A DNA stretch of 64,000 nucleotides from Streptomyces sp. B3I8 (GTDB lineage: Bacteria > Actinomycetota > Actinomycetes > Streptomycetales > Streptomycetaceae), in assembly GCF_030816915.1 (NCBI RefSeq), contig NZ_JAUSYN010000001.1:400795-464794 (forward strand). The letters are read 5' to 3'. Positions 189 to 64,000 of this stretch are shown here, piece after piece. Under the pieces are notes generated by a model. It was not told where the DNA came from, made no database searches, and was given only the letters and a program-made list of their open reading frames with translations. Within the stretch, counting starts at the first letter, position 1. The number at the start of each line of letters is the position of its first letter. The translations under genes were made by a program, and so were the position numbers.

Positions 189-1328
189 TCATCCGATCCG
201 CGCGTCGGCCTGTTCGGCCAGAGAGCGGGCCAGTTCGCGCAGTCGGCTCGGATTGCGTTCCAGTCCTCTTATGCCCAGGCAGCGGAACAAGTCGAAGAAG
301 GTCTCGTCACTCTCGATCTTCGTGTCCAAGAGCATCGCGAGCGCGCCGGGCTGGTCGTACGGGACCTTGCGGACAGGCCGTTCCTCGGGGGCGGGCTGCT
401 CGCCGGTCCCGGCCGGGAGCGGAACCTCCCGTGTCTCGGGCGCTGTCTGATGAGGTACGCGCTCGCCGTCGCCCGTTCGGTGTGACGTGGCGCTCGAGGG
501 TGATCGGCTCGGTTCGGCAGGGGTGATTACGGCGTAATCACTGCTGGACTTCACCGGCTCTCGGGCCTCGGGCCCACCGGGCGCTGCCGGCCGGTCTGCA
601 CCGCGCCCTCGTTTGTCTGCTTCTTTTCGGGCTCGCTCCTGCTTCAGTTGCTCAAGGGCTCTTTCCTGCTCCGCTGCCGGCCTGTTGCCGACGGCGCGCA
701 GCATGTCGATGGGCTCTGCCCCGATTCTGGCTTGGAGTTCCGGTGTGAGGTTGAGCAGGGCAAGGCGTTGTGACACCCAGCCCTGGGAGCGGTGGAGACG
801 TCGGGCGAGGGCTCGTTGACTGCCGTGGATGGCCAGGAGTCGTTCGAGGGCTCGGGCCTCGTCGAGTTCGTCGAGGTCCTGGCGGTGGATGTTGGCGACG
901 AGGGCTGATTCGAGGAGTTCCTCGGATGTGGCGCCCTGGTCGTCGCTGACCATGACCTTGAGGGTGGCGAGGCCGGCTTCGCGGGCTGCGGCGAGGCGGC
1001 TGCTGCCGTCGATGACGACGTGGGTGGTGTCGGGTTCGAGGTCGGTTTCGCGCTGGGGGTTGGCCTTGACGTAGGCGTCACGGTTCATGACCGTGATCGC
1101 CTGCTTCTGGCCGTGGGTTTTGAGGCTGCCCGCGAGGTCGGTGAGGTCACCCAGGCTGGAGCGTGGGTTGTCGGGGTTGACGCTGATGCGGTGCAGGGGG
1201 AGTTCGGTGGGCGGGGCGATGCCGTCTGTGGGAACGCCGGTGGCGGCGGCGACGGCCTGACGGCGAGAGCTGACGGGGCGCACTCCCCCTCCGAAGCGGC
1301 CTGCGCCCAGTTGATCGGCCTTGCTCAC
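189..1328 (-). CDS. parB: ParB-family partition protein (379 aa)
   Basis: Centromere-binding CTPase partner of ParA. The N-terminal ParB/Srx domain carries NPDNPR, GSSRLAA (where most ParBs have GERRxRA) and the helix ANIHRQDLDELDEA. A KorB-like HTH follows (GSQRALARRLHRSQGWVSQRLALL), then a charged linker and a C-terminal domain ending in a leucine/arginine-rich helix. The GTG start at 1328 overlaps the parA stop by 4 nt (GTGA), so it is preferred over a longer in-frame ATG at 1478 that would lie inside parA. Translational coupling to parA is likely. One copy of the proposed parS palindrome lies inside the gene. Plasmid-type rather than chromosomal ParB is inferred from the context. Confidence 0.93.
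   Translation of the reverse strand: MSKADQLGAGRFGGGVRPVSSRRQAVAAATGVPTDGIAPPTELPLHRISVNPDNPRSSLGDLTDLAGSLKTHGQKQAITVMNRDAYVKANPQRETDLEPDTTHVVIDGSSRLAAAREAGLATLKVMVSDDQGATSEELLESALVANIHRQDLDELDEARALERLLAIHGSQRALARRLHRSQGWVSQRLALLNLTPELQARIGAEPIDMLRAVGNRPAAEQERALEQLKQERARKEADKRGRGADRPAAPGGPEAREPVKSSSDYAVITPAEPSRSPSSATSHRTGDGERVPHQTAPETREVPLPAGTGEQPAPEERPVRKVPYDQPGALAMLLDTKIESDETFFDLFRCLGIRGLERNPSRLRELARSLAEQADARIG
523..541. repeat. Candidate parS palindrome, copy 1 (inside parB)
   Basis: Perfect inverted repeat GTGATTACG-G-CGTAATCAC (9+1+9). It shares the core TGATTACGNCGTAATCA with the copies at 1741-1757 and 2671-2699. It is not the canonical chromosomal parS (TGTTTCACGTGAAACA). Confidence 0.6.
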
Positions 1329-2602
1329 GAGACCTCCCGGGCCATGGCGCGCATGCCGACTGCCTGCTGGGATGTCGGCGCGTAGGACAGCAGGGGCTTC
1401 TTCACCCGGACCGCTTCTTTCTGTTCCTTGAGGTCTCCGATGAGGCCGACGACTCTGGGGTCCTTTATGTCGACCCATCCCTGGAGGGAGGAGGTGGCGA
1501 TGTAGCCGCGGCGTGAGTCGTACAGGTTGACGACGATGCCGAGGTAGTCGATGTCGATCTGGAGGTCGCCACGCAGATCGTCGATCTGGGTGGTGAGGAG
1601 TCCGTAGGCGTCGGCGGAGCTGTCTTCGGCCTGGACGACGATGAGGGCTCCGGACTGACCGGGCTTTTCGCCGTCACGGCGGCGCCCGTAGTAGGCGGCG
1701 GCGTCCATGCTGAGGCCGAGGCTTGGCGGGCAGTCGACGATGATTACGTCGTAATCAGCCTCGAGGGGCGCGAGAGCCCGTTCCAGAGCGGCTTCGCGGG
1801 CTCGCACGGCGGACAGCCGCACATCGAGCAGGAACGCGTCGTTGCAGGCGGGCAGAAGGTGGAGCCGACCGCCGAAGGTGTCGTCGTCGACGGTGACGAT
1901 GAGATCGCGCAGGTCGCCCTTGGGGTCGCCTGCCATGTGGTTGGTGAGGCTGTCCCCGTTCATGGGCAACGGTGTGGCGCCGAGCTGGTTGGTGAGGTGG
2001 CATTGCGGATCGAAGTCGACGAGGAGTACCCGCAGGCCGGGGCCTGGCATGTTCTCGATGTCCAGCGGATCGTCGCCCGGCTCTGCGTCTGCGGTGCGGG
2101 TCTCACTCGCGCGCAGGGCTTTGGTGAGGGCTTTGGCAACCCGTACGGGGTGGAGAGTGTTGGGGTCTTCGGCCAGTGCCTCGCCGAGTCCGGCGGTGAT
2201 CGCTGTCTTGCCCACTCCGCCCTTCTGGTTGCAGACGATGACGCGGCGAGTGATCGCGGGGCGTTCGATGTCCGGGGCCGGATTGGTGTCGAGCCACAGC
2301 TGGACGGACTGGGCGAGGCCTTGGATGAGGGAGACGCGACGGTCGGCAGCGATCTGCCGGAACTCCTCCCATTGGCCAGGGGGGAGGAACGTGGAGAAGG
2401 AGTCGGCGCCGGCGGTGTCGACGGCTGCGGTGGCAGAGGCCAGGTCGCACCAGCCGCTGATGCCCTGCTCAACAGCGACTTGGATTTCGACGCCGTGCTG
2501 GGCGGCTCTGATCTTGAGGTTCTGCCGGAGCCATCCCGGCAGTTTCGAGACGACCTTTTCGCGGTCGTTGGAGGTGGCTGGCGAACTCATGGGAGTCACC
2601 AT
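1325..2602 (-). CDS. parA: ParA-family partition ATPase with long N-terminal DNA-binding-like region (425 aa)
   Basis: Deviant Walker ATPase for plasmid segregation. Walker A is CNQKGGVGKTAI (about residues 124-135), Walker A' is VLLVDFDPQCHLT and Walker B is VIIVDCPPSLG. About 120 residues precede the ATPase. They contain two similar stretches, LPGWLRQNLKIRAAQHGV (21-38) and LPPGQWEEFRQIAADRRV (73-90), each followed by a hydrophobic helix ending GISGW or VQLWL. Both resemble ribbon-helix-helix units, so an autorepressor function is inferred. The ATG at 2602 has AGGAC upstream; a second ATG at 2590 lacks a Shine-Dalgarno sequence. First gene of the parAB operon. Confidence 0.93.
   Translation of the reverse strand: MVTPMSSPATSNDREKVVSKLPGWLRQNLKIRAAQHGVEIQVAVEQGISGWCDLASATAAVDTAGADSFSTFLPPGQWEEFRQIAADRRVSLIQGLAQSVQLWLDTNPAPDIERPAITRRVIVCNQKGGVGKTAITAGLGEALAEDPNTLHPVRVAKALTKALRASETRTADAEPGDDPLDIENMPGPGLRVLLVDFDPQCHLTNQLGATPLPMNGDSLTNHMAGDPKGDLRDLIVTVDDDTFGGRLHLLPACNDAFLLDVRLSAVRAREAALERALAPLEADYDVIIVDCPPSLGLSMDAAAYYGRRRDGEKPGQSGALIVVQAEDSSADAYGLLTTQIDDLRGDLQIDIDYLGIVVNLYDSRRGYIATSSLQGWVDIKDPRVVGLIGDLKEQKEAVRVKKPLLSYAPTSQQAVGMRAMAREVS
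1741..1757. repeat. Candidate parS palindrome, copy 2 (inside parA)
   Basis: TGATTACG-T-CGTAATCA (8+1+8), overlapping the parA codons just before and within Walker B (YDVIIVD). Same core as copies 1 and 3. The coding constraint may have shaped it, which weakens this copy. Confidence 0.5.
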
Positions 2603-2946: not shown

Positions 2947-3453
2947 TCAGCCGGCGCAGGCGCACCCGGCGGCGGCCTCGGCCTCGGCCGGGGTCCGGGA
3001 GGAATCGCGGGTCTGCTCCTCGGGAGTGCGGCAGGCGGTGGTGCCGCAGCAGGCGTCCGGGGCGGTGCCGGCTTTCTCCAGGGTGCCGGCGTCGGCCTTG
3101 ACCACGTACACCTCCCACGGCTCCTTTCCCGGGCCGGTCACCCACACCTTGTCCTGCAGGGCGTAGCAGCAGGAGGTGTCGTTCTCCTCGAACGTGGCCA
3201 GGCCCGCTTCCTTCAGCCGGGTGGTGGCAGCGGTGACGTCCTCGGTGCCGGCGACCTCGACACCGAGGTGGTCCAGGCGGGTCTCCTCGCCGGCCTTGCC
3301 CTCGATGAGGACCAGCTTCAGCGGGGGCTCGGTGACGGCGAAGTTGGCGTAGCCCTCGCGGCGCTTGGCGGGCTCGGTGCCGAACAGCTTTGAGTAGAAG
3401 GCGATCGAGCCTTCCAGGTCGGCGACGCGCAGGGCGAGCTGGACTCGGGACAT
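2947..3453 (-). CDS. arsI: ArsI/CadI-type glyoxalase-fold C-As lyase (168 aa)
   Basis: Vicinal-oxygen-chelate (glyoxalase) superfamily enzyme of the ArsI/CadI group, which cleaves the carbon-arsenic bond of trivalent organoarsenicals. Q5, H62 and E114 fit the metal triad. The vicinal pair C95-C96 (DTSCCYA) and K102 fit the organoarsenical site. The C-terminal tail is cysteine-rich (CCGTTAC and a final CAC). It is transcribed divergently from arsR across a perfect palindrome, so ArsR control is likely. CadI-like metal-induced function is the main alternative. Confidence 0.85.
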   Translation of the reverse strand: MSRVQLALRVADLEGSIAFYSKLFGTEPAKRREGYANFAVTEPPLKLVLIEGKAGEETRLDHLGVEVAGTEDVTAATTRLKEAGLATFEENDTSCCYALQDKVWVTGPGKEPWEVYVVKADAGTLEKAGTAPDACCGTTACRTPEEQTRDSSRTPAEAEAAAGCACAG

Positions 3454-54189: not shown

Positions 54190-54460
54190 TTACGACACAG
54201 CTTCTGCCAGCCATTGTCGCGGGTGGCGGTAGTCGTAGCCCTTGTCGGCGTGGAGTTCGGCGGGCCTGCGCCGACGGGGTCCTCGGCGGGAGCGGATCGG
54301 GGGTATGCCTTTCACGAGCGGGATCAGGGCCTGGCTGTCGTGGACGTTGGTCCCCGAGATGCCGATGGACAGGGGCAGGCCGGTCCGCTCGGTGATCAGG
54401 TGGATCTCCGAGCCCCCGGCCGGGGGCAGGGCGATCAGGTCGCCCGCGTCGTGGCCCATG
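54190..54460 (-). pseudogene. IS4/IS5-type transposase fragment
   Basis: Reads LIALPPAGGSEIHLITERTG, LPLSIGISGTNVHDSQALIP and PAELHADKGYDYRHPRQWLA: the central catalytic part (HADKGYD) of a DDE transposase. Both ends are missing; upstream it runs straight into the 29-bp tandem repeats. Confidence 0.75.
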
Positions 54461-54463
54461 ACA

Positions 54464-54580
54464 GGGAGGTAGGCCACCTCTGCATGACGACGGGGAGGTA
54501 GGCCACCTCTGCATGACGACGGGGAGGTAGGCCACCTCTGCATGACGACGGGGAGGTACGCCTCCTGTGCATGACGGCCG
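54464..54580. repeat. 29-bp tandem repeats, three perfect copies plus one degenerate
   Basis: The unit starts GGGAGGTAGGCCACCTCTGC and ends ATGACGACG. Perfect copies: 54464-54492, 54493-54521 and 54522-54550; a fourth, altered copy ends at about 54580. Each unit holds an imperfect dyad AGGTAGGCCACCT. There are no spacers, so this is not a CRISPR. Confidence 0.9.
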
Positions 54581-55109: not shown

Positions 55110-56054
55110 TCAGCCCCTGCGCGGCGGCATGTGCGTCCAGCCCGTGAGACGGCCCGCAGGCTCAAGGCGCCCGGGCGGGGGCCGTCACGCTCCCCGCCCG
55201 GGCGCCTGGCCCGTTCACCCCGCCCACCCGTACTCGTCCTGCACGCCCCGTCCGGCGTCCCGCTCGTCGCCGTCGAGGAGGCCGTTCACCGCGCCCTCGG
55301 TGAACTCCGTCTCGCCGTCACCGTGCGCCTGAAGGCCGCCGAACCGCCTGCGGACACGTCCGCTGTCACCGTGACGCCCTGGTGCCCAGCTGCCATGTCA
55401 GGCAGCGCTCGGTGGGGCGGATGCCCGGTCGACGACGCATCCCGATCAGTCGGAGGTCTCAGCGCGGCGGGGGAGGACGAGTGCTTTCCGCTGCGGTGCC
55501 GACCGGCAGGGCGCGTACCGCCGCCGCCGCACCCCGCCCGCGCCGGCGCAGGGAGAGCCAAGCCGGCCAAGGTTCCCACCGGGGCCTGCGGCGCCCACCT
55601 GCACGGCTGCGGGGGCGCGGGGGGCCCAGAGGCGAAGACGCCATGCCGCGCAGCTGGTCTCGCGCCGGCCCCTTCGCCTCCCGGCCGCAGGGACGGGCAC
55701 CAAGCGGCACGGCCACATCGTTGTCATGGATGCACCGGGGGAGACCGTCCGGCTGCGCGCGGAACCAGCCCGCAACACCGCAGCAACTGGCTGCTCCGCG
55801 CATGGAACAGCAAGGAGTCCTGTGCCCGACGAACTTACCGTCCTGTGCCCGACGAACTTACCGATGCCGCCGCGCCGGTCATCCGGCTGCAACCGGACTT
55901 CCGTCCCGCAGCGTTCCTCTCCCGAACCGACAAGCTCTCGTGCACTGGAATCCTTGAGGGCCTTGAGCCGACTGGATGCGGAGGTGGTCTGCTTCGGCGG
56001 CCTGGGTGTCGTCGAGCTCCCGGTCCTCGCCGTCCTGCTCACCGCCGGCGCCGA
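55110..56054. other. 940-bp stretch without an identifiable gene
   Basis: All frames are Arg/Pro/Ala-rich or antisense. It includes a 23-bp tandem duplication (55818-55863). It separates the PPC gene from a helicase fragment and is probably decayed helicase and transposon DNA. Confidence 0.4.
55818..55863. repeat. 23-bp tandem duplication
   Basis: TCCTGTGCCCGACGAACTTA-CCG occurs twice in a row (55818-55840 and 55841-55863) in non-coding sequence. Confidence 0.8.
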
Positions 56055-56225
56055 TGATCCATCCTCGTCGCGCCGTACGTGCACCTTGTGCTGCCCGTGG
56101 GTGCGGGCGCGGGAGGCGAGCTGCTCGACGAGTCGTTCATCATGCGGGCGCAGGCCCTGGAGTACGGCCACGAGCGGCTTGAAGCCGGCGCTGGCGACCA
56201 TGTCGGCCGGGTCCTCGTCCCGCTC
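56055..56225 (-). pseudogene. Fragment of a second telomere-associated helicase
   Basis: The minus strand reads EDPADMVASAGFKPLVAVLQ GLRPHDERLVEQLASRA, then HKVHVRRDEDG. It is nearly identical to part of the truncated helicase at 60265-62253 (FKPLVAVLQGLRSHDERLVE...). About 55 residues remain, from the end of the helicase core. Relic of a duplicated end gene. Confidence 0.75.
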
Positions 56226-60526: not shown

Positions 60527-62253
60527 CGCCGACCACTGCGACCTGAGGCGCCCGACGCCTTCCTCACTCCAGCACGGGTCCGCCCCGAGGGCGGACCCGT
60601 GCTGGAGAAGTGGAGCAGCGCGGATTGCGCCGCGCCCTCGGTCTTGGCGTGCCCGCCCTCGCCTTCGGCCGTGGTGGCGATGATCCGCCCGTCCTCGTCA
60701 CGCCGGACGTGGACCTTGCGCTTGCCGCTGGTGAGCGCGCGGGAGGCGAGCTGCTCGACCAGCCGCTCATCGTGGCTGCGCAGACCCTGGAGCACCGCCA
60801 CGAGCGGCTTGAAGCTCGCGGAGGCGAGCATGTCGGTCGGGTCCTCGCCGGGCTCCAGGAACACTGGCACGATGATCCTGGCCACCTTCGTGCTGCCGTC
60901 TTTGTTGAGCCTCAGGGCGCGGCCGATGTTCTGCACGATCTCGATCTGGGAGCCGCGGGTGTCGGCGAAGCAGACGGCTTCGACTCCTCGTTCGCCGGTG
61001 ATGTCGACGCCTTCTCCGAGGACGCGGCAGCTGGCGAGGAACGCGCGGTGTACGCGTCGGCCGTCGGCGTCGATGCCGCCTGCGAACTGGTGGAGGGCTT
61101 CGCGTCGTTCGGTGACGAGGTGGTCGCCGCACAGCCACGCCGACCACACCCGCTCCGGCGGGACGTGCCGTCCGGCTTCCAGTTCGTAGAACCCAGCGCC
61201 GATCGACGACGCGGGCAGCTTCTCCGCGGCCGCCAGGTCCTCGCCGGAGGCGTCGCGCGCGTACAGCGCGGCTGCGGTCTTCGGCAGTTTCTCCGCGAAC
61301 GCGGCGGCTTCCTCGACCTTCTGGTGGAACGTCATGACCGTACGCAGGTTGTACGCCGCCGCGTGCTCCAAAAGTGCGGTCTGCAGCAGCGCCAGGCGCC
61401 GGCCCCGCCGCGCCTCCTGTGACTCCCCGACGATGTGGGAGGGGTCGTGGATTTCGAGGACGTCGATCTCGAACCCGGCGAGGATGCCCCGCTCGATCGC
61501 CTCGGAGAGCCCGAGTTCGGCGCCGGGGAGCCAGGCCCCGAAGGTGCCGTCCGGGTCGTCGGCCATGCTCGCGAGTTCCGCCTCCATCCCGCCCGCGCCC
61601 TTCTGCGGGCGGGGCGAGGCGAGGATGCGCGGGGTGGCGGTGAGGTAGAGCCGGAAGTCCGCGGGGATGCGGGCGTTGTCGTGGATCGCCGCCCACGGCC
61701 GACCGAGGTCACCCGCGGTTGAGTGGGCCTCGTCCACGATGGCGAGGTCGAACGGGGCCATCTGCTGGCCGTAGAGCCGCTCCCCGCCCGCCAGAGCGGC
61801 TTCCACCGGCCCGCGAACCGTCCGCCGGCCGGTCGGGTCCTCCGGGTCCTCGCGGTCCACGAGGGAGGCGTAGGTGGCGAACACGACCACGGGCCCGGAC
61901 CCGGCCCAGAGCGCGAGCTGGATCGCATTCGTGGTGGTGCGCACCCCCAGTGCACCGAGGACCGGGTCGTTCTCCAGCGAGCACACCGCCACCATCGGCG
62001 CCCGATGCCCGACCGCACGCCACGCCTGGGCGGTCTGTGCGAGCAGGTCCAGGGTGGGCACGGTCACCAGGATCCGTCCGCCCGGGAAGCACTCCAGCGC
62101 GCTCGCGGCAGCCGTGATCGTCTTACCGGAGCCGGTGGCGGACACCAGCGTGCCCCGGGCCCCCTGCACGGGAACAGACGATCTTGCAAAAAATTTGGCC
62201 CATTCCCGAATGGCCGTTTTCTGGGTCACCTGATGTTCCCGGAGACTGATCAC
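60265..62253 (-). CDS. Telomere-associated DEAH helicase, truncated (ttrA-like)
   Basis: Superfamily 2 helicase: Walker A VSATGSGKTI (about residue 38), DEAH in LAIVDEAHS, LTATPR, and a C-terminal helicase domain with RALRLNKDGSTKVARIIVPV and FKPLVAVLQGLRSHDERLVE. This is the terminal helicase family found near Streptomyces linear plasmid ends (ttrA). The GTG at 62253 follows AAAGGAAAGG. Homology stops near residue 550 (SALLHF); the usual C-terminal helicase-associated repeats are absent and the frame continues as antisense of the SDR to 60265. Truncated, probably non-functional in transfer. Confidence 0.82.
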   Translation of the reverse strand: MISLREHQVTQKTAIREWAKFFARSSVPVQGARGTLVSATGSGKTITAAASALECFPGGRILVTVPTLDLLAQTAQAWRAVGHRAPMVAVCSLENDPVLGALGVRTTTNAIQLALWAGSGPVVVFATYASLVDREDPEDPTGRRTVRGPVEAALAGGERLYGQQMAPFDLAIVDEAHSTAGDLGRPWAAIHDNARIPADFRLYLTATPRILASPRPQKGAGGMEAELASMADDPDGTFGAWLPGAELGLSEAIERGILAGFEIDVLEIHDPSHIVGESQEARRGRRLALLQTALLEHAAAYNLRTVMTFHQKVEEAAAFAEKLPKTAAALYARDASGEDLAAAEKLPASSIGAGFYELEAGRHVPPERVWSAWLCGDHLVTERREALHQFAGGIDADGRRVHRAFLASCRVLGEGVDITGERGVEAVCFADTRGSQIEIVQNIGRALRLNKDGSTKVARIIVPVFLEPGEDPTDMLASASFKPLVAVLQGLRSHDERLVEQLASRALTSGKRKVHVRRDEDGRIIATTAEGEGGHAKTEGAAQSALLHFSSTGPPSGRTRAGVRKASGASGRSGRRHAWPVWSAGVGVSTLALIVSHVSSSARRVWSAARISLTAVVPVARRRGGWSASTAVRMAVATRSVVLNAVAGSSPMLFWTVRTVGS
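60567..60607. terminator. Perfect 19-bp hairpin at the convergent SDR/helicase junction
   Basis: Arms starting CTCCAGCACGGGTCCGCCC and matching GGGCGGACCCGTGCTGGAG, loop CGA. It lies 41 nt after the SDR stop and inside the reading frame of the truncated helicase, as if the helicase 3' end had been replaced. Confidence 0.75.
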
Positions 62254-62743
62254 AGATTTCGACCTTTCCTTTTTCCGGGCGACATCAGGTTCTTCCACCA
62301 CGTGCCCGTGCCCGAAGTGACCGCGCTTTCGTCGAGGGCCGGAGCGGGGCAGGGGTACCTGCCGATCCCGCCGCGCGCGGGCAGCTCGTCCTCGAAGCCG
62401 CAGGCGGCTACAGCTTTGAAGCCACCGTGCCACAGCGCTTCGAGCACGGCCGTGACGGCCTGCACCACCTCGTCCGGCGTTCCCGCGTGGGCCTCGCACT
62501 CAGCACGGTCGGCCACTGAAGGAAGCCGAAGGGATGGGCGCGCCGATTGGTGGCGTAGTCGTTGTGCTCGCCTTCCACGCGCACCGGCCCGACGGTCAGC
62601 TCCGCACCGTCGTCCTCAACGAGGCCGAGGGCGTCTCGAAGCCGGCCCACGACCCGCGGGGCGGACACGGCGTCCACGTAGATCGAGGCGTCGCTGTAAG
62701 GGGAGTCCGGGCCGAGGGGCGACGGCCCGCGATCATTCGGCAC
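62250..62743 (-). pseudogene. Frameshifted hypothetical protein downstream of ankyrin gene
   Basis: From a GTG at 62743, overlapping the ankyrin stop: PYSDASIYVDAVSAPRVVGR LRDALGLVEDDGAELTVGP, then HPFGFLQWPTVL. At about 62503 the sense moves frame to ECEAHAGTPDEVVQAVTAVL EALWHGGFKAVAACGFEDEL. Together it looks like a small immunity-like or SUKH-like family member paired with an ankyrin protein; the exact family is not identified. Confidence 0.45.
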
Positions 62744-63017
62744 GCGCGCTCCCCGGGGATTTGGCCGGGGTGAGGGAGAGGAAGTGCTGGAGCAGCCGCT
62801 GGGCCGGTTCGTGGCCGTAGCTCTCGGCCATCTGCAGCGGAGTTTCCCCGTTGGCAGCCGGCAGGTACAGGTCGGCACCGTAGGCCAGCCCGATTGCAGT
62901 GCTGGCCGTGTGCAGGGGACGCCCCGACTGCAGGTGGCCGTCCCCTTCCGAGCCGATCGCGTGAGTCAGCAACGTGAGCCCGAAGCACACCTCGTCCGGG
63001 TCCGCCCCAGCGTCCAC
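62733..63017 (-). CDS. Ankyrin-repeat protein, probably 5'-truncated (94 aa)
   Basis: MDAGADPDEVCFGLTLLTHA, GRPLHTASTAIGLAYGADLY and LPAANGETPLQMAESYGHEP AQRLLQHFL: about two and a half ankyrin repeats, starting at a GTG inside a repeat consensus, so the N-terminus seems lost. It overlaps the next ORF by 11 nt. No catalytic domain. Subtelomeric location. Confidence 0.65.
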   Translation of the reverse strand: MDAGADPDEVCFGLTLLTHAIGSEGDGHLQSGRPLHTASTAIGLAYGADLYLPAANGETPLQMAESYGHEPAQRLLQHFLSLTPAKSPGSARAE

Positions 63018-63305
63018 GGCTCCACCTCAGGCCAGGAGCTAGGCCCTAGCGCATCGGAACCCATAGCGCCCTTCCCCTCTCCACCGGCCTTGCTGGGCCG
63101 TGGCTGTCAGACAGCAGACCGGCCACGGACCTAACGCGCCGAGACCGATACGCCCTCAATCCCCGCTACCGGATGTCCCCGCTTTACACCAATGCTACAT
63201 GCTGCATCACATCAAGATGCAGCTTCCGAGACCACCCGACCGGGCCCCTCCACAAAATCCCCTGTGACCCCGATGGGCGTCACACATCGGGGTACACGGT
63301 GCCGC

Positions 63306-63602
63306 ATGGCACCGAAGACCGAACGCATCCAGCTCCTGTGGGCCGTGCGGCAACTGCGCCGTATCCGCTCCTTCTACGCCGCAGCCATCCTGCTGTGGAC
63401 GGGGACCACTGCCTGGACGGGCTGGCAGGCACCCGGGAGTCGGCAGATGTGGGTGTCCGTCCTCCTCCTGGCCGTCTTCACCGTACTGCTCGTCACCGCG
63501 AGCCTCGCCCTGCGGCGTCTCGCCGTTCCCGCCGCAGGCCGGCCCGCGCACCACGCTGCCCCGCCCAAGCTGCCAAGCACCCGCCGTCACGCTCACGCCT
63601 GA
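63306..63602 (+). CDS. Small subtelomeric membrane protein (98 aa)
   Basis: MAPKTERIQLLWAVRQLRRI RSFYAAAILLWTGTTAWTGW is helix 1, then VSVLLLAVFTVLLVTASLAL is helix 2; a basic Pro/His tail ends RRHAHA. The ATG at 63306 is picked because the longer frame starts in telomere-proximal repeats. Last gene before the telomere. Function unknown. Confidence 0.6.
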   Translation: MAPKTERIQLLWAVRQLRRIRSFYAAAILLWTGTTAWTGWQAPGSRQMWVSVLLLAVFTVLLVTASLALRRLAVPAAGRPAHHAAPPKLPSTRRHAHA

Positions 63603-63743
63603 GAGCCCGTCACTCTGCTCACGAGTCAGCCAGACCCCAGCCGCGCCCGCTTTGGACGGGGTCATGTGGCCTGTTGACAGCCCGTGACCGGACCACACAA
63701 GCCCCCCATCCCTGTAGGTGCCCGGGCCGTAGGCCCGTTGGCC

Positions 63744-64000
63744 GGCCCGCGCAGCGGGCCCGGCCTTTGTGGCGCACAGCGCCACCAGGTGGCTGGAGCG
63801 CAGCAGAGGCCACCCGGGGCCGAAGGCCCCGCAGCTCCGGGAGCGCAGCGAACGGAGCGTCACCCGCCCTGCGCAGCAGGGCGGGTGTGCGGGACGCGCA
63901 GCGTCCCGCCAGCGCTCCCGCGGAGCGGGAGCGCAACACCCGCGCGCAGCGCGGGTGTTCGCTTGCCCATCGCGCAGCGATGGGGTACCCGCTCCGCGGG
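63744..64000. other. Right telomere of a linear replicon (palindrome array)
   Basis: Nine palindromes in 257 bp, named from the end: I 63988-64000 (CCCGC-TCC-GCGGG), II 63966-63984, III 63935-63959 (11-bp arms), IV 63912-63934 (GGA loop), V 63889-63909, VI 63861-63887 (12-bp arms), VII 63834-63858, VIII 63816-63830 (GAA loop) and IX 63744-63760. Loops are GCA, GGA or GAA, as in archetypal Streptomyces telomeres, which are capped by a covalently bound Tpg protein and folded in the 3' overhang. The replicon ends at or within a few bases of 64000. Confidence 0.93.

Follow-up and report, generated by a model that had tools for sequence, protein, structure and literature searches.

Does the window, the 64,000-nucleotide stretch of Streptomyces DNA analyzed here, end at the physical tip of a linear replicon, and what does that tip share with the other replicon ends of the genome? 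The window corresponds to positions 400795-464794 (+ strand) of contig C1 of genome G000, and C1, which is 464,794 bp long, stops at window base 64000. A single further contig, C2 (7,518,387 bp), makes up the rest of the genome and is here named the chromosome. The reverse complement of the window end starts CCCGCGGAGCGGGTACC. A preliminary description had placed an archetypal linear-replicon telomere at 63744..64000, with a ladder of palindromes carrying GCA, GGA and GAA loops. We searched 638 overlapping 300-bp slices of the window, including the terminal one, for perfect, non-overlapping hairpins with stems of at least 5 pairs and 3-nt loops. The terminal slice ranks first, with 10 hairpins and 82 stem pairs (window mean 0.67 hairpins); a pair of slices overlapping it reach 5 and 4, all others have at most 3, and no slice outside the last 500 bp exceeds 3. 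The ten hairpins span 278 bp (63723-64000, minus strand, 5' tip at 64000), so the telomere is where it had been placed, with a start set about 20 bp short, as an extra hairpin lies at 63723-63737. The ladder itself is borne out: five of the 3'-strand loops are GCA, GGA, GAA, ACA and GTA occur once each, and palindrome I has TCC. DNA folding gave -131.4 and -129.2 kcal/mol for the two strands (z = -9.49 and -9.84), and for each 0 of 200 shuffles were as low. These z-scores and the hairpin density across the 638 slices rule out chance palindromes.

Read inward from the tip, all on the minus strand, the ladder begins with the 13-nt palindrome I, CCCGCGGAGCGGG (63988..64000), which is exactly complementary to nt 72-84 from the tip, a stretch within palindrome IV. 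Palindromes II (63966..63984) and III (63935..63959) have stems of 8 and 11 bp, respectively, and GCA loops on the 3' strand; palindrome IV (63912..63934) has a 10-bp stem with a 3'-strand GGA loop and an alternative pairing with palindrome I. Hairpins V (63889-63909) and VI (63861-63887) also have 3'-strand GCA loops, and the hairpin search adds four more, with GAA (63815-63831), ACA (63769-63785), GCA (63744-63760) and GTA (63723-63737) loops. The numbering past IV is assigned in the present analysis. In the accessible part of PMC4513846, the archetypal layout is a 13-nt palindrome I complementary to part of IV, with the first four palindromes within 91 nt, II and III forming GCA-loop hairpins closed by G:A, and an end replication minimum of 167 bp comprising the first seven palindromes. 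Here, palindrome I lies at the very tip and is complementary to part of IV, II and III would, at the level of sequence, form GCA-loop hairpins with sheared G:A on the 3' strand, and ten hairpins over 278 bp stand against the minimum of seven palindromes or 167 bp. The palindrome II-type hairpin is the published Tap-binding hairpin.

The structure is also kept by covariation. Of 21 aligned ends, 11 well-aligned telomeres were used and 10 divergent or gapped rows were dropped, including the close relative on the plasmid of Streptomyces sp. HUAS CX7 (NZ_CP130682), which differs in a palindrome IV that deviates from the usual form and is gapped in the alignment. Across hairpins II-VI, a structure taken from the window itself as one of the 11 rows, 98.5% of 542 pair cells are paired and 8 are unpaired. 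Changes on both sides affect 23 of the 50 pairs (4/8 in II, 4/11 in III, 1/10 in IV, 6/9 in V and 8/12 in VI), and zero pairs vary one-sidedly. Five measures were compared with 500 shuffles, which ignore relatedness, and on each of them 0 shuffles came up to the real alignment; slid structures pair at most 59% of cells. Counted by cell over the hairpin arms (63861-63984 and the ten other ends), 64 changed on both sides, 0 on one side, and 8 are unpaired. Such two-sided arm changes would fit arm-to-arm correction during end patching.

Relatives of the telomere are concentrated at the ends of Streptomyces plasmids. A 300-bp query matches 96 of 72,556 plasmid records, 95 from Streptomyces and 1 from [Kitasatospora], and among the 60 matches listed, 57 lie within 200 bp of the record end. 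Heading the list is SLP2, whose right end is 91.6% identical over 299 bp; this match provides the proposed alignment to a known Streptomyces telomere and, with the covariation-kept structure, places this end among the archetypal telomeres. No telomere match was found in 50,697 phage records, and no viral contig searched with the palindrome I-II pattern carries it; a phage origin is ruled out on these two grounds. The exact telomere 54-mer occurs in five draft-genome contigs, at or within about 12 bp of the contig end in four. The fifth (L138:1-200; NZ_BDJC01000098.1, Streptomyces sp. JHA26) is a fold-back, in which inverted telomere nt 1-69 (palindromes I-III) come first and the sequence then continues from nt 72. 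This start, palindrome I folded back onto IV, could be either an artefact or a parvovirus-like flip of the end.

So, is this a true end? C1 stops exactly at window base 64000, as the preliminary description had anticipated. The left end of C1 starts with the identical 13-nt palindrome I and has a comparable hairpin ladder, with ~81% identity to the right end over 278 bp; it is, from its sequence, a different archetypal telomere. The window also encodes ParB-like (189-1478, minus strand) and ParA-like (1325-2602, minus strand) plasmid partition genes. Because the contig stops at 64000 and has a second archetypal telomere at the opposite end (C1:1), C1 reads as a complete 465-kb linear plasmid, which would place the telomere of the window at the physical tip of a linear molecule. 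It is very improbable that the sequence is instead a decayed or internal copy of a telomere at which the contig just happens to stop. Telomere sequence can sit within a record, as in 3 of the 60 listed plasmid matches (H3, H58 and H60), but both C1 ends begin at the first nucleotide of palindrome I, and the hairpins are intact. With the hairpins, the pairing of palindromes I and IV, the contig end and the telomere at the other end of C1 all in agreement, the claim of an archetypal linear-replicon telomere holds, and 63723-64000 appears to be the genuine terminus of a linear Streptomyces plasmid.

The capping genes were said to be missing from the window and to lie elsewhere or act in trans, and this is what a profile search of the whole genome found. 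The NCBIfam Tpg profile has a single locus at C2:15378-15923 (292-293 bits, cut-off 90) and the Tap profile a single locus at C2:15975-18299 (1089.5 bits, cut-off 600). The two genes are adjacent on the chromosome contig (C2:15378-18299), with one copy each, and the search found none in the window and none anywhere on C1. Of 14 control genomes, 0 gave a match to Tpg and 4 gave one to Tap, none above the cut-off. A lone tpg on the plasmid is ruled out, as the sole tpg of the genome lies on C2. The predicted Tpg has 185 aa (from a start Met chosen in the analysis), with Thr at 114 in S-T-D-Q-D (S113, D115 and D117). In S. lividans Tpg, nucleotidylation is assigned to T114, which has S113 before it and D115 and D117 after it (PMC3572947, available text). 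Compared with the archetypal Tap-Tpg end-patching system, both proteins score above curated cut-offs, are encoded adjacently and retain the Thr114 context; the sole difference seen is that they are encoded on the other replicon.

Since C1 encodes neither tap nor tpg, it appears to depend on the chromosome for capping, most likely in trans by chromosome-encoded Tap and Tpg. After replication, the 3' strand would stay single and fold into the hairpin ladder; chromosome-encoded Tap would bind hairpins II and III and position chromosome-encoded Tpg, which would prime the last stretch and remain bound to the 5' C via Thr114. This is the published mechanism, transferred here on the basis of anatomy. 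There are precedents: SLP2 is described as requiring chromosomal tap (PMC3572947, available text), and pSLA2-S and SAP1 are listed, in the part of PMC8743542 at hand, without genes for either capping protein. All sequence-testable features of an archetypal Streptomyces telomere, including tap and tpg encoded in the genome, are present, and the telomere is in itself ordinary.

The archetypal reading gains an addition, in that 3 kb of this end is also on the chromosome. The right end of C2 is the window's telomere without the first 10 nt of the tip; starting at nucleotide 11, the two right ends are identical over 3,056 bp (60935..63990, minus strand, matching C2:7515332-7518387; 100%, 0 differences). 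The first mismatch, at 60934 (minus strand), marks the inner edge of the shared segment and falls within a DEAD/DEAH helicase gene, the counterpart of the SLP2 terminal helicase. Inside the edge, identity between C1 and C2 falls at once to 61-88% in 50-bp steps. We interpret the locus as the right archetypal telomere of a 465-kb linear plasmid, capped in trans. Homologous recombination has probably exchanged the outermost 3.06 kb with the chromosome recently, or copied it from one molecule to the other, and one edge of this tract falls within the ttrA-like helicase gene. We put the probability of this whole reading at about 0.88. Taken by itself, recent end recombination between plasmid and chromosome is probable.

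The helicase gene (60603..62283, minus strand) is transcribed inward near the end, as is described for terminal ttrA genes in the accessible text of PMC8743542, which our label 'ttrA-like' follows. On the chromosome the gene is complete, encoding 896 aa from the chosen start, and has four PF03457 (HA) stretches. In the plasmid copy, homology is lost after about residue 564 of 896, ResIII/DEAD is present and PF03457 is absent; judged against the complete, HA-containing chromosome copy, it is filed as a truncated relative. Its homology ends ~330 bp inward of the edge, at about 60603, and the frame continues to 60265 in unrelated sequence. A 41-bp palindrome (60567..60607) lies where the homology ends, just beyond a neighboring + strand SDR-like frame, which begins there on the way inward, and is probably a terminator hairpin; on this account it was rejected as a fused telomere. 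At the C1 left end, another ttrA-like gene (L007:992-3695) has a frame change near C1:3000, with homology resuming in another frame, which is either real or a base-calling error. Between the helicase gene and the telomere are a small ORF (62733..63017, minus strand) with no Pfam match, at the same place as an annotated ankyrin-repeat gene in the CX7 and S. coelicoflavus plasmids, and a 136-aa ORF (63192..63602, plus strand) with no Pfam or NCBIfam match, about where the outermost hypothetical gene of SLP2 sits.

The identity of the plasmid and chromosome ends could also have been made by the assembly, with a real telomere and plasmid-end reads joined to C2 through the homologous helicase gene. 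The edge does fall in a gene that three of the four contig ends carry, and contigs of other genomes begin in the same gene (G159 and G019) or 85 bp outside it (G010). C2 is moreover imperfect, lacking 10 nt at its right end and a telomere at its left, where a hairpin ladder was sought and none is present. C2:1-7494 repeats, in inverted orientation and at 99.84% identity, a stretch starting 7,955 bp from its right tip; without a ladder and inside this 7.5-kb inverted repeat, the left end of the chromosome was probably cut short in assembly. If the missing left part matches the right end, the terminal repeat would span roughly 15.4 kb. A mis-join should, however, be weighed against the chromosome gene being a single unbroken frame with all domains and S. 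coelicoflavus-like on both flanks, with the switch seen in the plasmid gene instead, and against the near-identical plasmid and chromosome ends in other assemblies and in publications. We consider it unlikely.

If the exchange is real, in which direction did it go? The closest collinear ends are those of the CX7 plasmid (94.0% over the telomere query and 90.1% over about 3.4 kb of joined pieces) and the S. coelicoflavus NBC_00099 plasmid (NZ_CP108219; 83.5% and 87.0%, respectively). At megablast sensitivity, each covers at most 14% of the last 25 kb, and they resemble different parts of the helicase genes of C1 and C2. Among the matches listed for 60 relatives (61 genomes including its own), no close copy of either end was found, the best long matches being about 83% over 1.6 kb. 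We compared C1 and C2 at positions where the S. coelicoflavus and CX7 ends differ, a site test that used only three reference ends. Just outside the edge, both favor S. coelicoflavus over CX7 (55:19). Inside the edge, the plasmid gene favors CX7 (S. coelicoflavus to CX7, 7:31 and then 8:14; Fisher p = 2e-8 for the first). In the chromosome gene, a ~360-bp tract inside the edge (3057-3420) sides with neither (25:36; p = 1e-4 versus the outer flank), and beyond it the gene is S. coelicoflavus-like again (167:25). Because the affinity flips at the edge in the plasmid gene, this gene is somewhat favored as the recombinant, with transfer from chromosome to plasmid. The direction is not clean, owing to the odd chromosome tract and a slight difference in strength between the two flanks of the chromosome gene (55:19 and 167:25; p = 0.017), and the imperfect C2 contig also counts against certainty.

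Linear plasmids are mobile partners, which speaks for the reverse, a plasmid that donated its end to the chromosome. The terminal 5.2 kb of the chromosome is also 87% like the S. coelicoflavus linear plasmid end, and the odd 360-bp tract in the chromosome gene adjoins the edge. The switch in affinity, however, occurs at the edge in the plasmid gene and not in the chromosome gene as a whole, and we regard plasmid-to-chromosome donation as rather unlikely.

Shared ends recur in other genomes. We surveyed 18 few-contig genomes (15 + 3), comparing 20 kb per end in the same orientation and the first three pieces per pair, for stretches of 3 kb or more, ≥ 99% identical, that one end of the largest contig has in common with an end of a different contig. 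Eight of the 18 chosen genomes share ends in this way (G000, G089, G090, G115, G122, G159, G177 and G185), a proportion that is no frequency, as G090, G115, G177 and G185 were picked because ttrA scored the same, or almost the same, on two of their contigs (three candidates per genome scored). G318 (4 left ends), L068 and L102 (contigs of about 14 kb) and L099 were left out. The shared length is 3.06 kb in G000, 3.7 kb in G185, 4.9-6.8 kb in G122, 11.9 kb in G090, 12.5 kb in G089, 12.7 kb in G177 and at least 20 kb in G115, which is identical through all 20 kb compared. G159 shares 10.8 kb, with the large contig beginning 3.6 kb inside the other contig's end. Only two smaller contigs share an end in G019 (20 kb), two smaller contigs of G004 share 1.2 kb, and G023 shares 0.8-1.1 kb at 97-99%. 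At the survey threshold, no sharing between contigs was found in G010, G025, G027, G036, G097, G235 and G285; the two contigs of G036 are probably halves of one chromosome.

The inner edge could be measured in seven of the eight sharing genomes (all except G115). It lies at ttrA-like sequence in three: inside the gene in G000, 6 bp past the 3' end of the match in G185 and at a fragment start in G090. It lies away from ttrA in the other four (G089, G122, G159 and G177), so edges in ttrA are not supported as a rule. In G090, the edge meets a ttrA fragment, the second one, on only one of four ends, C2 right (L081), about 11.94 kb from the tip.

Ends shared between plasmid and chromosome are already published for SLP2 and pSHJG1, and the present case is a well-resolved further example. 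SLP2 (NC_004933, S. lividans 1326) has the same type of telomere at its record end, with the 91.6% match over 299 bp, and the same inward order of an outward-facing small gene, small genes and a helicase. Its 15.4-kb right arm is reported as common to the S. lividans chromosome ends (PMC3572947, available text), whereas 3.06 kb is shared here. SLP2 is also described there as carrying two lone tpg homologues, unlike C1, which has none, and its annotated terminal helicase is 2,646 bp, compared with the shortened gene on C1. The rightmost 1.2 kb of pSHJG1 (S. hygroscopicus 5008) is, in the accessible part of PMC3424136, strongly homologous to the chromosome right arm, which its authors interpreted as recombination, and this plasmid is likewise given as lacking Tap. 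One pSHJG1 end is assigned to another telomere class in the consulted portion of PMC8743542, whereas C1 is archetypal at both ends.

What is new here is a sharply bounded natural shared end, with 0 differences in 3,056 bp and one edge inside a ttrA-like gene. The available text of PMC8743542 describes telomere exchange by recombination with incoming plasmids and ttrA at most ends, proposes that telomere exchange is connected with the ttrA genes found terminally on most replicons, and states that ttrA in SLP2 is required for conjugal transfer. Telomere turnover in a population, with probable exchange with plasmids, is reported in the accessible part of PMC7205883. In our literature search, the titles and abstract openings describe no crossover inside ttrA; most of the subscription literature and the original SLP2 paper lay outside its coverage. 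We tentatively suggest that the terminal ttrA-like gene may serve as a homology platform for copying telomeres between plasmid and chromosome, keeping the ends cappable by one chromosomal Tap-Tpg pair, and that the chromosome end may just have overwritten that of the plasmid, with a crossover inside the gene. If reads confirm the junction, this strain would let the proposal that links ttrA to telomere exchange be tested directly.

Further inward, the window holds a fragment of a second ttrA-like gene (55995..56217, minus strand; 80% to the chromosome copy), a relic ~4.6 kb inward of the present ttrA-like gene that matches a stretch near the present truncation. It possibly marks a former end. 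At 54460-54575, a 29-bp tandem repeat occurs in four copies, the final one diverged.
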